Below are positions 6,376 through 40,974 of a DNA stretch of 40,974 bases, piece after piece. The stretch spans positions 1 through 40,974 of the forward strand of contig JAGVYP010000068.1 in assembly GCA_018303205.1 (NCBI GenBank). The letters run 5' to 3'. The translations under genes and the position numbers were made by a program. The notes below the pieces were generated by a model. The model was not told the origin of the DNA. It searched no databases and worked only from the letters and a program-made list of their open reading frames with translations. Each line of letters opens with the position of its first letter. Positions within the stretch are counted from its first letter, which is position 1. The DNA comes from Candidatus Woesearchaeota archaeon. GTDB lineage: Archaea; Nanobdellota; Nanobdellia; Woesearchaeales; JAGWAF01.

Positions 6376-7440
6376 TTACAATGTTTCAATTCCTAGATCG
6401 TCATTTAATCTTACCGTTTGGAAAGAAGTCTTTTTATTGTCCCTCTTACCAAGAATCCAAGGACTATTTACACCTGTGATAATGGTCATAACGGTAAGCT
6501 TATTTTTCATGTCATCAGTAATTCTTGCTCCCCAGATGACATTAGCTTCAGGATCCATTTCTTCAGTAACTAATTCTCCAACCCTATTGATCGCATCCAA
6601 GGTTAAATCTGGTCCACCATGAATATGGATAATAGCACCTGTTGCTCCTTTGTATTCAATATCCAAGAGTGGATTTGCGAGAGCTCCTTTGACAGCTTCT
6701 TCTACTTTGTTATTCGTATCAGAGGCACCAATACCAATAGCAGCTACACCACCATTGGTCATGATAGCTCTAACGTCTGCAAAGTCAAGATTAACTAAGC
6801 TTGGGATTGCAATGGTTTCCACAATACCTTTGATCATGGTTGAAACAAGTTCATTAGCGACAGCAAAAGCTTGTTGTACGGGAAGATTTCCGGCAATTTG
6901 CACAAGCCTATTGTTATCAACGACAATAACGGTATCAGAAACTTCTCTCAATAATTGTAAACCATGTTCTGCTTTGTCTATTCTCGCTCTTTCAATATTA
7001 AAAGGCATTGTTACTGTTCCAATGACAATTGCTCCTGTTTCTTTTGCAGCATGTGCAACAACATGGGCAGCTCCTGTTCCTGTTCCTCCACCCATACCTG
7101 CGCAAATAAAGACCATGTCTGAGTTTTTGAGGGATTGTTTAATCTCATTAATGGATTCTTGTGCAGCTTCAGTTCCTTTGGTTGGAAAACCACCACAGCC
7201 TAAACCGCGAGTAAGGTCTTTTCCGATAAGGAACTTACGATCTGCTTCAGTAAAGTCAAGATGCTGTAAGTCAGTATTACATGCAATAATCTCTGCTCCC
7301 TTGATTCCTTTTTTATAGAGCCAGGAAACCATGTTGTTTCCAGCACCGCCAACACCGACTACTTTGATGTTAGCTTTTCCTACATTAGAAGAATATTCTT
7401 GTTGTGGTTGTTTGACCGCGTTTTGTACAATGAAATCCAT
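6376..7440 (-). CDS. ftsZ: cell division protein FtsZ
   Basis: VVGVGGAGNN, AGMGGGTGTGAAHVVA, NTDLQHL. Confidence 0.98.
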   Translation of the reverse strand: MDFIVQNAVKQPQQEYSSNVGKANIKVVGVGGAGNNMVSWLYKKGIKGAEIIACNTDLQHLDFTEADRKFLIGKDLTRGLGCGGFPTKGTEAAQESINEIKQSLKNSDMVFICAGMGGGTGTGAAHVVAHAAKETGAIVIGTVTMPFNIERARIDKAEHGLQLLREVSDTVIVVDNNRLVQIAGNLPVQQAFAVANELVSTMIKGIVETIAIPSLVNLDFADVRAIMTNGGVAAIGIGASDTNNKVEEAVKGALANPLLDIEYKGATGAIIHIHGGPDLTLDAINRVGELVTEEMDPEANVIWGARITDDMKNKLTVMTIITGVNSPWILGKRDNKKTSFQTVRLNDDLGIETL

Positions 7441-7532: not shown

Positions 7533-7685
7533 ATAAGCGTGATATGCTCTTTTCCTCTCGATCACCTGCCTTAGTGTATACCTTTTGTATACTGGTATTT
7601 TTTTAAGTATACTTATATATAAATGTTTCGATTTAGTGTGCTATGTATGGTAATTCACTCTATTTTAAAAGAAAAAACGATAAGA

Positions 7686-7696
7686 TTAGGCACAAG
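7686..7696 (+). repeat. dispersed intergenic motif TTAGGCACAAG copy 1
   Basis: exact 11-mer. Confidence 0.9.
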
Positions 7697-7864
7697 AAAA
7701 AACTAAGCTATGGTTTGTTTACTCTTATCTTTTTTTATGAAAAATCTTCAAACAAAATACAAAATAAACAGAAAAATAGACGATAAATTAGAACTTATAA
7801 AAAATATATGAAAAAAATAAAACGACAGAAAAAACAAACAGAAATAAGAGTAAATATCAAAAAA

Positions 7865-7875
7865 TTAGGCACAAG
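7865..7875 (+). repeat. dispersed intergenic motif TTAGGCACAAG copy 2
   Basis: exact 11-mer. Confidence 0.9.
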
Positions 7876-7938: not shown

Positions 7939-8445
7939 ATGAATATGCTTGGAAACCCTATTCCCGAATATACTCAGTATACTGATGCTGATGCTGAAAA
8001 ATTGTACCTTCCTTTAATAGTAGACAATCTCAATGACCAAGGTCTAGGAGCACTTCTGGAGGGTACTATCATTGATCTTGGATGCGGAACTGGAAAAGTA
8101 CTCTCAGAGATCAGAAAAAAACATCCTCGAGCAAGACTTATAGGAGTTGATCTTGCACCCCGACAAGACCATGAAGGAATAGAATATGTGACTGCAAGTG
8201 TAACAGCAACAGGACTCCCTCCGGAAATTGCTGATCTAGTATTTATACTCGGTCTCGCAGGTTCTAGTCCAGGTGCAAGTGTCATACATGTTGTTCAAGA
8301 AATAGATAGGCTCCTCAAACCTGGAGGAGTTGCTGCTATATTAAGCATATCTGAAAAATGGGAATATCAAACTCTTTTTCAAGTGTTTGCGTATACCTCT
8401 TTAGCTACTTGTGATTTTATTCACCAAAAACCAAGACCAGTATAG
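7939..8445 (+). CDS. class I SAM-dependent methyltransferase
   Basis: IIDLGCGTGKVLSEIRKKHPRARLIGVDLA. Confidence 0.85.
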   Translation: MNMLGNPIPEYTQYTDADAEKLYLPLIVDNLNDQGLGALLEGTIIDLGCGTGKVLSEIRKKHPRARLIGVDLAPRQDHEGIEYVTASVTATGLPPEIADLVFILGLAGSSPGASVIHVVQEIDRLLKPGGVAAILSISEKWEYQTLFQVFAYTSLATCDFIHQKPRPV

Positions 8446-19387: not shown

Positions 19388-19864
19388 TCAAAGAAAAAAC
19401 GAGGCAAGAACTCCTCCAAGAATAACGCCAAGAACAGCTCCTGCAAAGACATCACTCCAATAATGTTTTTTCAGATAAATACGAGTATAAGCAATGCATA
19501 CCGCAAACAAGAAAAGAATGATAGTCATCATATAATCAGTATAGGGATGAGTAAGTAACGTTACTAATACAAAAATTCTTGCAGTATGCACACTCGGAAA
19601 TGAGTTTGCTTCTATTTTTTCTAACCACGTCGTATAGGACAAAGCTTCTGGTCTTTTTTTGAAATACACTGAGCGAACAGCAATGACAATGATATGAATA
19701 AGTATAATACCCAGCAAGATACTATTTGCAAGAGCGCTATACCCCACAAGATAAAAAAGAACAACAAGCAACATGCTAAAAAAAATACTTCCTAATGTAG
19801 TTGCATCTCTCATGCCTTCATCAAGCCATTTTTGAAAAATATTTTTTGGCATCACACTTCTCAT
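19388..19864 (-). CDS. PAP2-family phosphatase
   Basis: FKKRPEALSYTTWLEKIEANSFPSVHTAR...KKHYWSDVFAGAVLG. Confidence 0.9.
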   Translation of the reverse strand: MRSVMPKNIFQKWLDEGMRDATTLGSIFFSMLLVVLFYLVGYSALANSILLGIILIHIIVIAVRSVYFKKRPEALSYTTWLEKIEANSFPSVHTARIFVLVTLLTHPYTDYMMTIILFLFAVCIAYTRIYLKKHYWSDVFAGAVLGVILGGVLASFFL

Positions 19865-19945: not shown

Positions 19946-19956
19946 CTTGTGCCTAA
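19946..19956 (-). repeat. dispersed intergenic motif copy 3
   Basis: exact 11-mer CTTGTGCCTAA on +. Confidence 0.9.
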
Positions 19957-20110
19957 CTTTTTCAAATATTTTTTATGTATTTTTTTCTATTTTCTTATGT
20001 TTTCCTGTATATTTCATAATGATTATTTTATCGTCTTTTTTAGAATTTTTGTTTGTGTTTTTATAAAAAAAAGATAAGAAATAACGAACAAAAAAAATAA
20101 CGACATTTTC

Positions 20111-20121
20111 CTTGTGCCTAA
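20111..20121 (-). repeat. dispersed intergenic motif copy 4
   Basis: exact 11-mer CTTGTGCCTAA on +. Confidence 0.9.
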
Positions 20122-20208
20122 CTTTTAAGAAAAGACTTCGGAAAATAAAGACGAAAACAGATACACAATGTTTATAAACAAAACACTCTTATGGGAAAGT
20201 GATGATAA

Positions 20209-20682
20209 ATGAATAAGAAAATAGCCTGGTTTGTGGTACTCCTTGCTTTTCTTGGAATATTGCTCACGTTTTACCTTACTTGGCTTCACTATAATCCTCC
20301 TGCTCCTGATGAAGAAATCCTCGGCTGCCTGACAGGATCAGGATGCAGCGCAGTAACCACGAGCGAGTACAGTTATTTTCTTGGAATACCTGTTGCAGTG
20401 CTTGGTTTAGTTACGTATATCATTATTTTTTTACTAAGCATCCTTTTTTTATTTTTGAAGAGCGAAGAAAAAAGAAAAGAACAGGTAAGTATGATTATTC
20501 TCTTGTTGAGTTTTATAGGAACACTCTTCCAAGCATACTTAACCTATCTTTCAGCTACGATTATCCGCGCATATTGCTCACTCTGCATAACGTCTGAAGT
20601 ATTTATCACACTTATTTTTGTCTTATCTTGTATTCTTAACAAAGAAAAATTAAAAATGATTTGGGAACGTTATGTTGAATAA
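20209..20682 (+). CDS. vitamin K epoxide reductase (VKOR) family membrane protein
   Basis: four TM-like segments, LTGSGCSAVTTSEYS, AYCSLCITSEVF. Confidence 0.9.
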   Translation: MNKKIAWFVVLLAFLGILLTFYLTWLHYNPPAPDEEILGCLTGSGCSAVTTSEYSYFLGIPVAVLGLVTYIIIFLLSILFLFLKSEEKRKEQVSMIILLLSFIGTLFQAYLTYLSATIIRAYCSLCITSEVFITLIFVLSCILNKEKLKMIWERYVE

Positions 20683-27287: not shown

Positions 27288-30200
27288 ATGCCAGAAAAAT
27301 ATGAAGAACAAGCAGTAGAAAAGGAAATCTTGCAGTTTTGGGAAAAAAACAAGATTTATCCTAAACTCAAAAAGAAAAATAAAGGAAAAAAACATTTTTA
27401 CTTCTTAGAAGGACCACCGTATACTTCTGGAAAAGTACATCTGGGTACTGCATTGAATCTTGCATTGAAGGATTCTATCATTCGATACAAACGTATGCAA
27501 GGCTTTGATGTCTTTGACAGATGGGGATACGACGTGCATGGATTACCTACAGAACACGCTACCGAAAAAAAGCTCGGCATCTCAGGAAAAAAAGCAATTC
27601 AAGAATTTGGAGTTAACAAATTTATTGACGAATGCAGAACACTTGCCTTAGAAAATGCTGCAGAGATGAACAAAGACTTCTGGCGTTTAGGAGGATGGTT
27701 TGATTACGAAAACGCTTACATGGCTCTCACCAAAGAATATATCGAAGGAGAATGGTGGCTTGTAAAACAAGCGCATGAAAAAGGAAGGCTCTACGAAGGA
27801 GAACGTTCCATGTCCTGGTGCGCTTCCTGCGGAACAGCATGTGCAAAACACGAGTTAGAATATAAAAAAGTAAAAGACAATTCAATATATGTCAAATTAA
27901 AATTAAAAAACAAAAAAGATGAATATCTGATCATTTGGACAACAACACCCTGGACCATACCTTTCAATCTAGCAGTGATGGCTCATCCTGATCATGAATA
28001 TGTCAGAGCAAAAGTTGGAAATGAAACTTGGATTCTTGCAAAAGCATTGGCAGATGATGTTATTGTCCATAAAGCAGAAACAAGCTACACTATACTCGAA
28101 ACATTTCCAGGAAAAAAACTAGAAGGAACCTCTTACGAAGGAGTTTTTGAAAACGAAATTCCCCAAATCAACACCTGGAAAAGAGAATGCCCCAAGACAT
28201 ATACCGTAGTTCTTTCTTCTGAGTATGTGGATGTTGTTTCAGGAACAGGATTAGTACACTGCTCACCCGGATGCGGACCTGAAGATTATGAAGTAGGACA
28301 TAAAAATAAGATCAAACCCTTTAATACACTGAATGATCAAGGCATTGTTCAAGACATTCCCTTTTTTGAAGGCATGCGTGCGAAAACAGATGACAAACAT
28401 TTTATTGAAAAAATAAAAGACAAAAATGCACTCATTGCACAAGCCTTTATTGATCACGATTATGCACATTGCCAGCGTTGCCATAAGCCCATTATCTATA
28501 AAACAACGAAACAATGGTTTTTCAAAGTAGAAGATATGAAAGAAAAGCTGATCAAAGAAAATGATAAGATACACTGGACACCCAAAAGTGCTTATAACGC
28601 TTTTGATTCTTGGTTACAAAACTTAAGAGATAACTCTATTACCAAACAACGCTATTGGGGAACACCCGTTCCTATCTGGAGAAATGTAAATAATCCTGCG
28701 GATTATCTTGTGATCGGTTCTGCAAAGGAATTAGAAGAATTGAGCGGAAAAAAACTGAAAGATCTTCATAAGCCAAGTGTGGATCCTGTTGAAATAAAAA
28801 AAGACGGAAAAACCTACAAGAGGATTCCTGACATCTTAGACGTATGGGTAGATGCAGGCTGTGCTTCTTGGAATGCATTAGACTTTCCTGCAAAAAAAGA
28901 AGCATTTGAAAAACTATTTCCCGCAGACCTTATCATGGAAGGTATAGACCAAATCAGGGGATGGTTTAACCTCTTACATGTTGCTTCAATGATTAGTCAT
29001 GAAAAACCCTCTTTCAAAGCAGTGTACATGCATGGATTTATCAATGATAGCCTAGGAAGAAAAATGTCAAAATCATTAGGGAATTACATTCTCCCCCAAG
29101 AGGTGATTGACAAACAAGGAGTAGATACCTTGCGTTACTACATGATCGGAGGAGCAAACCCTGGTTTAGATTTGAATTATAATTTTGATGATCTCAAATT
29201 AAAATACCGTAACCTCATGCTCTTGTGGAACTTGCAGAATTACCTCCTTGATTTTGCAGAACAATTAACTATCAATCCTAAAAAATTGAAATATGAAAAA
29301 CAAAAAAAGTATTTTGACATTCCTGAACAATATCTTCTTTCTAAGGTGCATTCTACCATAAAAAAGATAACAGAACTATATGATCAGTATCATCTCAACG
29401 AAACTCCCTTAGCAGTAGAAGAATTATTCTTAGAATTATCAAGAACCTATATCCAACTTGTAAGAGAAAAAACAACGACAGGAAAAAAAGAAGAAAAAGA
29501 AGCAGTACTCTATGTGGTGTACGAATCTTTTTTGACCATTCTCAAACTCTTTGCCCCTACCTGCCCATTTATCTGCGAAAAAATCTATCAAAATGTAAAG
29601 AAAGCATGGAAGTTGAAAGAAGAGAGCATTCATCATTACTCCTGGCCAACAGAAGATTCTTCCTTAATCAATGAAGAACTTGAGAAACACATGCAAAACA
29701 CGCAAGAGATCATCGCTGCTGTTCTGTATGCTCGAGAAAAAGCCAAGTTAGGAATACGATGGCCCCTGAAAAAACTCATTGTTGTGACAACGACAAAACA
29801 AAGCAAGGAAGCAGTAAAAAATCTTTGTGCTTTAATGCAAACCCAGACCAATGTGAAGGAAATAGAAGTAGTTTCGCAATTTTCGCAATGCAAAATAATT
29901 GTTGAACCTCAGAAAGGAGCGTTAGGAAAAAGCTTTGGAGAAGATACTCCTCAGGTACTAAAGGCATTAGCAAAAACAAAACAAGAAGAAATATTAAAGT
30001 CATTAGAAGAAAAAGGATCCTATGATCTTATTTCTGGAAAAGAACCTTTTGTTTTGAAAAAAGAACATGTGGTTATAACCAAAAGTGTTCCTGAACCCTT
30101 TGTGTTAGCAGAATTCAAAGAGGGGGTAGTTATCCTTGACACGTCGAGGAATGATGAGCTCGAAGGAGAGGGATTTGCAAGAGAATTAGCAAGAAGAATT

Positions 30201-30437
30201 CAAGACTTGCGAAAAAAAGCAGGATTAGTAAAATCTGATGGGATTACGTTACAAATACAAGTCAGTGAACGTCTTGCAGCGTTACTTGAAGGCTGGCATG
30301 AACATATTAAAGAAAAAGTAGGAGCAAAGGAAATGCAGGTTAATTCCAAGCATGTTTTTGAGTATCAACATACTTCTACAGAAAAAATAAAAGAAGAAGA
30401 GCTCAATATTGCATTGGAAAAAAGAGAAAGTATGTGA
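27288..30437 (+). CDS. ileS: isoleucyl-tRNA synthetase
   Basis: EGPPYTSGKVHLGTALN, RWGYDVHGLPTE, GRKMSKSLGNYI. Confidence 0.97.
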   Translation: MPEKYEEQAVEKEILQFWEKNKIYPKLKKKNKGKKHFYFLEGPPYTSGKVHLGTALNLALKDSIIRYKRMQGFDVFDRWGYDVHGLPTEHATEKKLGISGKKAIQEFGVNKFIDECRTLALENAAEMNKDFWRLGGWFDYENAYMALTKEYIEGEWWLVKQAHEKGRLYEGERSMSWCASCGTACAKHELEYKKVKDNSIYVKLKLKNKKDEYLIIWTTTPWTIPFNLAVMAHPDHEYVRAKVGNETWILAKALADDVIVHKAETSYTILETFPGKKLEGTSYEGVFENEIPQINTWKRECPKTYTVVLSSEYVDVVSGTGLVHCSPGCGPEDYEVGHKNKIKPFNTLNDQGIVQDIPFFEGMRAKTDDKHFIEKIKDKNALIAQAFIDHDYAHCQRCHKPIIYKTTKQWFFKVEDMKEKLIKENDKIHWTPKSAYNAFDSWLQNLRDNSITKQRYWGTPVPIWRNVNNPADYLVIGSAKELEELSGKKLKDLHKPSVDPVEIKKDGKTYKRIPDILDVWVDAGCASWNALDFPAKKEAFEKLFPADLIMEGIDQIRGWFNLLHVASMISHEKPSFKAVYMHGFINDSLGRKMSKSLGNYILPQEVIDKQGVDTLRYYMIGGANPGLDLNYNFDDLKLKYRNLMLLWNLQNYLLDFAEQLTINPKKLKYEKQKKYFDIPEQYLLSKVHSTIKKITELYDQYHLNETPLAVEELFLELSRTYIQLVREKTTTGKKEEKEAVLYVVYESFLTILKLFAPTCPFICEKIYQNVKKAWKLKEESIHHYSWPTEDSSLINEELEKHMQNTQEIIAAVLYAREKAKLGIRWPLKKLIVVTTTKQSKEAVKNLCALMQTQTNVKEIEVVSQFSQCKIIVEPQKGALGKSFGEDTPQVLKALAKTKQEEILKSLEEKGSYDLISGKEPFVLKKEHVVITKSVPEPFVLAEFKEGVVILDTSRNDELEGEGFARELARRIQDLRKKAGLVKSDGITLQIQVSERLAALLEGWHEHIKEKVGAKEMQVNSKHVFEYQHTSTEKIKEEELNIALEKRESM

Positions 30438-30538
30438 ATTTTTTATGGTTTTTTTATTTTTGAATACTAGTTTTATCGTCTATTAATAGTTTATTTTGTA
30501 TTTTTTTTTTGAATTTTATAAAAAGAAAATAAAGCTTT

Positions 30539-31378
30539 TTACGCTGCTCTTGGCATTACTCTTAGCATTGCTTCAGCATCAGGAAAACGCGCTCTTGGAT
30601 CTTTTTGTGTTGCTCTTCTTACCAGGTCCCTTATCCATCGCGGTATTTTTGGATTTAAGAAAAAAACAGGAGGCATTTCATCTCTTACCTGAGCTTTTAA
30701 GACCTGCATTGTTGAAACCGAATTGAAAGGCACAGCTCCTGTTGCCATTTCATAGAGAGTTATGCCTAAAGAGTAAATATCTGTTGCTGGTGTGAGTGGT
30801 CTTTGACAGGCACAGACTTCTGGCGCTGCATACTCAGGTGTTCCAAGAAATTCATAACCATTTTTGCCTCTTTCTCTTAAGAGATCCTCTCTTTGATACA
30901 TTGTACCTAAATCAATAACCCATGCTCTTTCTCCACCGAGTTCTACCAAAATATTTGCAGGCTTCACATCCCTATGAACAATACCATAGCCATGAAGCTC
31001 AGCTAAGCCTTCAAGAGCATCTCGCAAAATAGGAACAATATCTGATTCACCTAACTCTCTACGGGGAGATGTCGCAATTGCTGCTTCTAATGTTTCACTT
31101 GTAATATAAGGAAAGAGTATTCTTGCAGCATCCTCAGTTTGTATGACTTGAGCTCCTGTGACAACATGAGTACTCCCTCTTAGTATTGCCATAGCTGCTT
31201 TTTCATGATAGAATTCATCTTTTTCCCAAGGATCTGTAAGATCGTATCTTTTCCTAACCCATCGTTTTCCTGTTGCTATTTCAATTACTTCTTGAGTTCG
31301 TGCTATGCCATCCTTGCCTATTCTTCCTCCTAACATGGCACCTGTTCTATATCCAGGAAAGATTTCAGTTTCAGACAT
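30539..31378 (-). CDS. Hanks-type Ser/Thr protein kinase
   Basis: GIVHRDVKPANILVE, AWVIDLGTMYQ, GTPEYAAPE. Confidence 0.92.
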   Translation of the reverse strand: MSETEIFPGYRTGAMLGGRIGKDGIARTQEVIEIATGKRWVRKRYDLTDPWEKDEFYHEKAAMAILRGSTHVVTGAQVIQTEDAARILFPYITSETLEAAIATSPRRELGESDIVPILRDALEGLAELHGYGIVHRDVKPANILVELGGERAWVIDLGTMYQREDLLRERGKNGYEFLGTPEYAAPEVCACQRPLTPATDIYSLGITLYEMATGAVPFNSVSTMQVLKAQVRDEMPPVFFLNPKIPRWIRDLVRRATQKDPRARFPDAEAMLRVMPRAA

Positions 31379-31614
31379 CTCAACTCACCTCGAGAATAAA
31401 ATGACGAGTACGTATAAAGATGGGTATATGCTTTTTTTGTAAAAAGGGGATATAAAGAGTAGGGATTACCATTCCTATCACCGCGTTAGTATATATTAAG
31501 GTATACTAATATATAAATATACACTATATACTAGCTCTGATAGACCCTCTTTTTGATTTGTTTGTATTTTTATAAAAAAAATAAGGAATAACGAATAAAA
31601 AAAAACGATATTGC

Positions 31615-31625
31615 CTTGTGCCTAA
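31615..31625 (-). repeat. dispersed intergenic motif copy 5
   Basis: exact 11-mer CTTGTGCCTAA on +. Confidence 0.9.
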
Positions 31626-31732
31626 CTTTCTTACGACAGATGACATAAAAAACGAAAAAGTAATGTCTAGAGAAGATTAAAGTAAATCTCAAGAAAACAA
31701 CCTTTATAAACCCATCCCAAAAAAAGAAGGAT

Positions 31733-32743
31733 ATGGGTATCAAGGCAGCAGACGAGTGTGTCTATGTAATCTGGAAGCGAATACGGGGTCTGCGCTATGT
31801 AAATCCGATCAATCAAGATCAAGAAAAGAAGAAATTCTTTGCTTCACCTTCTTATAATCCTCACTTTCAGTACCCTCCTCTTAAATTTGATGCAGACTAC
31901 TACAAAAAAAAATTAAGAGAATGCAAAAAACATTTAGATCAAAGTGGCATAGCTCATCTTATCAATGCAAAGATTGACAAGCTTATTCTTTGGATTGAGC
32001 TCTTGGAAAATAGAGGCAAGGAACCTTACACCAAATGCGGTATTGCCTACTATGGCAAGCCCTCTCCAGAACTGGTGGAAACCGCAAAAAAAATTCTCGC
32101 TAAAAAAATAAAAGACAATGAGCAATACACCTTATCTGCTAAAGAGGTTGCTGAGTTTCTCAGACGACAAGCAAAGCGATGGAACATTCCTTGGAGTATA
32201 GAAATAAAGAAACATCTTGGAGCGCGAGCAGATAATGTAACTTCTGAAAAGACTATTTACTTGAAACACGGAGAGCAGTTCTCTGTAGAAGATGCAAAAC
32301 GATTAGCAATTCATGAACTGGGAGTTCATGCGCGAAGAGCATTGATGGGAGAACAGCAATCTTATAAAATATTTCTTATCGGAACAGCAGAATACGAAGC
32401 TACAGAAGAAGGTTTGGCAGCAGCGGTAGAAGAAATAAAGCAAGTGTCTACTCCCAAAGTCCTCAAAAGCTATGCAGGAAGGGTTTTAGCAGTGCACTTA
32501 AGCTTAAAGCATTCCTTCAGAGCAGTGTACTCTCATCTCGTAGAATACTTTGCTCCTCAGGAAGCATACCAGCTTACGATGAGGGCAAAAAGAGGAATGC
32601 TAGACACTTCCCAGCCAGGAGCTTTTACCAAAGATTATATCTACCTTAAGGGTATGGAAGAAGTAAAGAAAATAAAAGACATCAAAAAACTCTTTTCAGG
32701 AAGAATTGGCATAGAAGACATGCCTAAGGAGTATTTCGATTAA
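31733..32743 (+). CDS. DUF1704 / MATCAP-like metallopeptidase
   Basis: LAIHELGVHARRALMGEQQ (HExxH) followed by TAEYEATEEGLAAAVEE. Confidence 0.75.
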   Translation: MGIKAADECVYVIWKRIRGLRYVNPINQDQEKKKFFASPSYNPHFQYPPLKFDADYYKKKLRECKKHLDQSGIAHLINAKIDKLILWIELLENRGKEPYTKCGIAYYGKPSPELVETAKKILAKKIKDNEQYTLSAKEVAEFLRRQAKRWNIPWSIEIKKHLGARADNVTSEKTIYLKHGEQFSVEDAKRLAIHELGVHARRALMGEQQSYKIFLIGTAEYEATEEGLAAAVEEIKQVSTPKVLKSYAGRVLAVHLSLKHSFRAVYSHLVEYFAPQEAYQLTMRAKRGMLDTSQPGAFTKDYIYLKGMEEVKKIKDIKKLFSGRIGIEDMPKEYFD

Positions 32744-32767
32744 AAAAAAAGTTATCTTATCAAAAAG

Positions 32768-32778
32768 TTAGGCACAAG
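32768..32778 (+). repeat. dispersed intergenic motif copy 6
   Basis: exact 11-mer. Confidence 0.9.
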
Positions 32779-33897: not shown

Positions 33898-34395
33898 ATG
33901 AGGAGCTTATTAGAAAGTTACTTAGAAGCAGGATTGATTACCTGTTTTCCCAGACGATATGATAAAACGAGCATAGGGAATTTTTTGAGAGGTTTAGATA
34001 CTTTCAAGACAGAACTTGTTGTTGAAGGATTATGCGCGAAATTAGCAAATCCTAACTTGATTCAGGTTGGCAATGACAGGGTAGCATTAACCAGCCAGCG
34101 CGGTGATGCACTTATTCTGCAGCCAACAGATCTTAAAATTAGCACCTACACAAAATCAGGAAGAGATATTTGGTTTGCATTGATCACCGATCAAGGAGAA
34201 ACATGCACAACCCAGCCTCCTGAAGAAGAAAGAATGATTACAAGCTCTGACGGAGCTGGATATGTACAACAATACATACGCGGTTATCTCGAGCCTTGGT
34301 TTTTATACAGTAGAGAAAATCCTATGTCCCAAGACGTAACACAAAAAGTTTTAAGGATGTTATTTGCATTATGGAACCCTCAACAAGCCAGATGA
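33898..34395 (+). CDS. hypothetical protein directly following signal peptidase-like gene
   Basis: TAA-ATG junction, probably co-transcribed. Confidence 0.65.
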   Translation: MRSLLESYLEAGLITCFPRRYDKTSIGNFLRGLDTFKTELVVEGLCAKLANPNLIQVGNDRVALTSQRGDALILQPTDLKISTYTKSGRDIWFALITDQGETCTTQPPEEERMITSSDGAGYVQQYIRGYLEPWFLYSRENPMSQDVTQKVLRMLFALWNPQQAR

Positions 34396-34399
34396 CATT

Positions 34400-34410
34400 C
34401 TTGTGCCTAA
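34400..34410 (-). repeat. dispersed intergenic motif copy 7
   Basis: exact 11-mer CTTGTGCCTAA on +. Confidence 0.9.
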
Positions 34411-34972: not shown

Positions 34973-35077
34973 AGCATACCCTAGTTCTTTTTTCATGTAT
35001 TTTTTGTTTTAAATTTTTTTATCTTGTTTGATTTTTTTTATAAAAAAAGATAAGAATAAACGAAAATACCTTTTTTC

Positions 35078-35088
35078 CTTGTGCCTAA
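35078..35088 (-). repeat. dispersed intergenic motif copy 8
   Basis: exact 11-mer CTTGTGCCTAA on +. Confidence 0.9.
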
Positions 35089-35204
35089 CTTTTTTTTATT
35101 TGTTTTTTTTATATTTTTTAATTTTAGTTAATATTTTTTTTATAAAAAGTAAAATAATAAACGAAAAAAAGAACAAAGAGAAGGTGACATAAAAAAGAAC
35201 AAGA

Positions 35205-40949: not shown

Positions 40950-40960
40950 CTTGTGCCTAA
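40950..40960 (-). repeat. dispersed intergenic motif copy 9
   Basis: exact 11-mer CTTGTGCCTAA on +; 29-nt identity with copy 3 region. Confidence 0.9.
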
Positions 40961-40974
40961 CTTTTTCAAATATT

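Follow-up and report, generated by a model that had tools for sequence, protein, structure and literature searches.

The 11-mer TTAGGCACAAG, nine exact copies of which lie in the 40,974-nucleotide stretch of DNA analysed here (the window), is the core of a 16-17 nt direct repeat, R (AAAAGTTAGGCACAAGG); in the form AAAAG-TTAGGCACAAG-G, R stands at both ends of a non-coding, AT-rich unit of about 180 bases in all, built as R-body(~165 nt)-R. The unit is discrete and dispersed, it ends in direct repeats, and where units adjoin they have one end in common. With some reserve, we regard it as probably a miniature mobile element, non-coding and non-autonomous, that has direct repeats at its ends and whose mobility we infer. 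The window is contig C17 of G000, the 85% complete genome of a probable DPANN archaeon of the order Woesearchaeales (1.42 Mb in 74 contigs).

Copies of the 11-mer and anatomy of the unit

The preliminary description of the window had listed nine copies of a rare, intergenic 11-mer. An exact-match scan reproduced all nine positions and strands, and a 29-nt identity reported between copies 3 and 9 is real. The rarity was borne out by dinucleotide shuffling (mean of 0.01 per window; none of 100 shuffles reached nine), and no copy lies inside a called gene of the window, whose coding fraction is 0.82. What had not been recorded is that copies 1-2 and 3-4 are direct-orientation pairs, 179 and 165 nt apart. 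A genome-wide count, proposed there as a check, gave 67 exact copies in the 1.42 Mb (28 forward, 39 reverse) against 0 for the reversed control pattern. The intergenic enrichment also extends to the genome: 65 of the 67 are intergenic by dicodon gene calls made in this analysis, the genome context having been taken from stretches around the copies in a fragmented and incomplete assembly; the other two (L034:2092 and L024:89) probably reflect a mis-called start and a contig-edge call. Spacers with R are longer than those without, by medians of ~210 nt (divergent), ~275 nt (tandem) and ~150 nt (convergent), and in tandem spacers there is no preferred orientation relative to the genes (10 sense, 14 antisense). 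Three genes terminate at a TAG inside R (L010:2347, L020:2232 and L023:4142), and thus their last codons may have been changed by the unit. Contigs also end inside or beside copies (window 40950-40974; L024:89; L033:147; L016:2431), so that the assembled copy number is probably too low.

The following features were recognised in the window:

7681-7875, plus strand: complete unit; left R core 7686-7696, body 7697-7864, right R core 7865-7875
19946-20126, minus strand: complete unit; left R core 20111-20121 (AAAAG before it), body 19957-20110, right R core 19946-19956
30439-30532, minus strand: possible relic; weak body match without R
31491-31630, minus strand: single-ended unit; left R core 31615-31625 (GAAAG before it), partial diverged body 31491-31602
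32763-32778, plus strand: solo R (AAAAGTTAGGCACAAG), 24 nt past the stop codon of gene 31733-32743 (+)
34400-34410, minus strand: solo R core, 4 nt past the stop codon of gene 33898-34395 (+); no recognisable body
34984-35093, minus strand: R with weak partial body; core 35078-35088 (AAAAG before it), body match 34984-35068
40950-40974, minus strand: right end of a unit truncated where the contig stops; usual body end AATATTTGAAAAAG, then R core 40950-40960

Both complete units lie in divergent spacers. The first, in which R is exact on both sides and the left R is preceded by TAAGA instead of AAAAG, separates an FtsZ-family gene (6376-7440, -) from a methyltransferase-domain gene (7939-8445, +) and has a body E of 8.8e-18 (body model 38.5 bits, E 1.3e-9); the second, which takes in the stretch singled out in the preliminary description, has a PAP2-family gene (19388-19852, -) on one side and a VKOR-family gene (20209-20682, +) on the other, with a body E of 3.1e-19 (body model 64.1 bits, E 1.4e-17). 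The single-ended unit (body 23.8 bits, E 4.8e-5) has no recognisable right R, the best match carrying 5 mismatches, and the solo R at 32763-32778 has no recognisable body on either side. The body match at 34984-35068 is weak (E 1.5e-6; model 18.9 bits, E 0.0017). The possible relic (E 3.8e-4; model 23.5 bits, E 6.6e-5), with no R at ≤3 mismatches on either side, fills the spacer between genes 27288-30437 (+) and 30539-31378 (-). Neighbouring genes of the window (31733-32743 and 30539-31378) encode a protein of the MATCAP (microtubule-associated tyrosine carboxypeptidase) family and one with a protein-kinase domain, and R copies lie in the spacers around the two.

Throughout G000, 28 direct-orientation pairs of sites (0-1 mismatch) lie ≤300 nt apart on one strand, mostly at 145-190 nt, and the bodies between paired R are homologous to one another. 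The consensus starts with AAAAG-TTAGGCACAAG-GAAAA, passes through a pyrimidine-rich left half (TTCGTTTATTCTTATCTTTTTTTATAAAAA) to a middle of CACAAACAAAAAT followed by ATAGACGATAAAA, and closes with a purine-rich right half that finishes in ATATTTGAAAAAG, upon which TTAGGCACAAG appears again. A body-only model, from which R was excluded, found 55 places in G000 at E ≤0.001; it scored 150 of 3160 first-look candidates, and as the alignments are of AT-rich sequence the weakest matches may be chance. The best 29 bodies carry an exact R on the left in 18 cases and on the right in 20, while most weak body matches are without R. Where both ends are recognisable, mean identity is 92% for the R ends and 73% for the bodies, two internal blocks of which are nearly as conserved as R. 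A free-standing regulatory 11-mer is not the whole story, as 51 of the 67 exact copies adjoin a recognisable body; some of the others are solo R.

Borders, dispersal and relatives

Bodies of the nearest units (C53, C33, C59 and C74) are 85-94% identical at unrelated loci, and those on C8, C64 and C59 are 82-87% identical. In most close pairs the similarity is confined to the stretch from the A-run in front of the left R to just past the right R; an exception is the C53/C68 pair, which shares ~50 nt to the left of R (L025:1139-1193 and L032:2195-2249), including the palindrome GTTACTATAAAGTAGTAAC, upstream of unrelated genes. Target duplication outside the R pair was not apparent, direct repeats numbering 73 against 72.4 in shuffled pairings; R itself could be the duplicated target. 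Genes lying between same-orientation R copies on C21, C59 and C53 were considered as coding cassettes and rejected, since by eye they look like ordinary chromosomal genes (HIT-like, LemA-like, HtpX-like, malate-dehydrogenase-like). Paired R did not occur in IMG/VR, and plasmids and phages gave no match; 36 viral contigs with a single 15-mer match each suggest chance rather than viral carriage, and so do most of the matches in genome contigs, which are scattered over unrelated phyla.

Among 359 genomes of the order, GTTAGGCACAAG is enriched in only two, G000 (61) and G002 (22), all others having 0 or 1. G002 represents a second genus of the same family, of which two further members, G001 and G003, have 0 exact copies. 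The core in G002 is AGTTAGGCACAA(G/T)G and bounds 15 units of 48-241 nt, the bodies of which differ in length and sequence and share the plan of a pyrimidine-richer part followed by a purine-richer one; GACGATAAAA (≤1 mismatch) is found on the sense strand of 8 of the 15 units and on the other strand of none. Contig C37 of G002 carries an array, R-86-R-89-R-127-R, in which neighbours share one R, and the third body of this array is 87% identical over 113 nt to that of a single unit on C26, the flanks being unrelated. A body match in C74 of G002 (E 3e-4), with no R at ≤2 mismatches, was taken as chance.

Other repeats accompany R in G002. A second direct repeat, TTTAGGGAGTACAA, surrounds the motif GACGATAAA and is nested inside two R units; TTAGGGAGTACAA, of the same family, has seven exact copies in G002, which form pairs, at a distance of 68 or 105 nt, on either side of a GACGATAAA-like motif. 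The TTTAGGGAGTACAA repeat occurs in seven copies in G002 and in one in the other 60 genomes scanned; its family occupies the loci L252, L254, L256 and L258 (on C11, C21, C32 and C70, respectively). A further dispersed repeat, which has the inverted parts AGAGAACTTTGCAAA ... GCAAAGTTCTCT, closely follows two R copies (L054:2326-2524 and L061:2009-2220) and looks like an ordinary inverted-repeat element. In G020, which belongs to another family, one divergent spacer (C39, L066:1696-2018) contains six same-strand copies of TTAGGCAC or its one-mismatch form at irregular spacing; five of them, in direct orientation, read TTAGGCAC and one reads TTGGGCAC. This array adjoins a probable surface-protein gene; elsewhere in G020, on C52, a recombinase is flanked by two R-like words without the AAG context.

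Origin of the unit

The case for a mobile element is made by the intergenic bias, the longer spacers with R, the R-to-R ends at unrelated loci, the better conservation of R than of the body overall, the presence of the same R on other bodies in a second genus and the shared-R arrays. Weak bodies are mostly without R, which is what decay of old copies would produce. A recombination or transposition enzyme might recognise R in trans, and a body-plus-R unit would then enter at or beside an existing R; alternatively, the whole R-body-R unit might be copied into a new AT-rich spacer. Solo R would be the product of deletion between direct repeats, and immobile copies would decay, ends included. Recognition of R by an enzyme would account for R being kept in two genera while the bodies differ. 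Of four options raised in the preliminary description, the evidence speaks most for a remnant of a small non-autonomous element, except that the 11-mer marks where the unit ends and that in many units both ends are intact. Against a mobile element it may be held that miniature transposons do not usually have direct repeats at their ends in place of inverted ones, that solo R without a body exist and that one pair of units shares 50 nt beyond the left R; the internal blocks in which conservation nearly reaches that of R might also point to a role of the complete unit in the host. A search of this 85% complete genome for Y1 transposases and tyrosine recombinases, the two classes covered, brought up no transposase that could be linked to R, and no Y1 transposase was found in the four family genomes.

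It is possible, if unlikely, that R is the core site of a XerA/IntI-like tyrosine recombinase, at which non-coding circles of body and R integrate and excise in the manner of integron cassettes. Neighbouring units do have one R in common, and the same body is seen in more than one array setting. R also contains GTTAGGC, which fits the integron GTTRRRY box, a likeness taken solely as a lead. The only tyrosine recombinase found in G000 (C2:43376-44218, 281 aa) scores nearly equally against the models for integron integrase (216 bits; TIGR02249 cut-off 265) and archaeal XerA (215.5 bits; cut-off 220); both scores lie just under the cut-offs, and the protein did not qualify as an integron integrase with the additional domain. 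Each of the three genomes that carry R or an R-like array encodes a related recombinase (in G002 on C33), and none was found in G001 or G003; however, such proteins are also found in 74 of 100 genomes of the order and are therefore not specific and no marker of R. Moreover, the units are dispersed and not clustered beside the recombinase gene. A RYYYAAC partner box upstream of R was seen at 0 of 63 sites in G000 and 3 of 39 in G002, where 6.0 and 5.2 were expected by chance; with this box not enriched and no consensus fold, R was rejected as an integron attC. The XerA/IntI-like recombinase of G000 is a candidate enzyme, no more. A wider form of the same idea is an array-forming system of archaea in which a recombinase, perhaps an XerA/IntI-like one, would insert, exchange and stack non-coding mini-cassettes at a core that is a short direct repeat without structure, while a sister family with the same body plan would use another core (TTTAGGGAGTACAA in G002); this is likewise doubtful.

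No better placed is the proposal that R is bound by a nucleoid, segregation or regulatory protein and maintained by selection, with the AT-rich body as a functional spacer or as a bidirectional terminator that is T-rich both ways; we consider it improbable. R is almost invariant while the bodies vary, the same core is present in a second genus, and the body contains conserved motifs; in addition, with pyrimidines prevailing in the left part of the body and purines in the right, both strands offer incoming transcription a T-rich stretch. Yet two family members are without any copy, R is mostly gone from weak, probably old, bodies, and the units are not enriched in convergent spacers (7 of 43 spacers with R against 21 of 122 without), where terminators would be expected. 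A binding site also leaves unexplained the conserved body and the high identity of whole units at unrelated loci, the R-to-R borders and the shared-R arrays. The suggestion of a host site, made in the preliminary description, retains a small share of the probability.

That each unit is a paralogous RNA gene or a processed RNA bounded by R is very improbable: the polarity is fixed and internal motifs are conserved, but a Rfam search of the window, with its curated covariance models, matched two tRNAs only, no consensus fold emerged on either strand, folding was no better than in shuffled sequences (mean z 0.0 and -0.5 for the two strands) and the G002 bodies vary greatly in length and sequence. 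A structured RNA was accordingly rejected, and the small-RNA suggestion made earlier is disfavoured. A DNA uptake signal, also proposed then, is unlikely with about one copy per 21 kb and a conserved body attached.

Comparison with known systems

Taken as a miniature mobile element, the unit resembles the prokaryotic MITEs (PMC10969869) in being short (<500 bp), AT-rich, non-coding, multicopy and intergenic, in lacking a transposase of its own and in having sharp borders at unrelated loci. It differs from them in that its ends are direct and not terminal inverted repeats, no target duplication is seen outside the ends, neighbours share an end and no parent element was found. The inverted core TTGTGCC was present within 150 nt upstream of R at 0 of 63 sites in G000 and 0 of 39 in G002. 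With REP and REPIN sequences (PMC3116915) the unit has in common short repeated ends, an intergenic position and pairs at a typical spacing, whereas its pair is direct and not inverted, it forms no hairpin and a RAYT-type Y1 transposase is absent from the four family genomes, which argues against an IS200/605 or REPIN origin. Integron cassette arrays, including archaeal ones (PMC9668308), likewise stack in one orientation with a single core site between neighbours, and the recurrence of a body in different arrays, a related recombinase in the genome and a core that fits GTTRRRY are shared features; unlike integrons, the units have no folded attC partner box and no coding content, are scattered chromosome-wide and form no platform by the recombinase. 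CRISPR and other direct-repeat arrays also consist of short direct repeats with intervening sequence, and insertion would duplicate the repeat; there, however, the likeness to CRISPR ends, the bodies being mutually homologous (G000), the unit lengths ranging over 48-241 nt (G002), one or two units standing at each of dozens of sites and the repeat being only 11-17 nt long.

A limited search of the open-access literature on Woesearchaeota repeats, MITEs and terminal direct repeats returned nothing on such repeats. To our knowledge, descriptions of the mobile elements of DPANN archaea are few. A miniature element that ends in direct repeats and forms shared-end arrays matches neither MITEs, REPINs nor integrons, and its copies at contig ends mean that it affects the assembly of these genomes. 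A comparison of the two genera, which have the core in common but not the bodies, could lead to the enzyme that recognises R.
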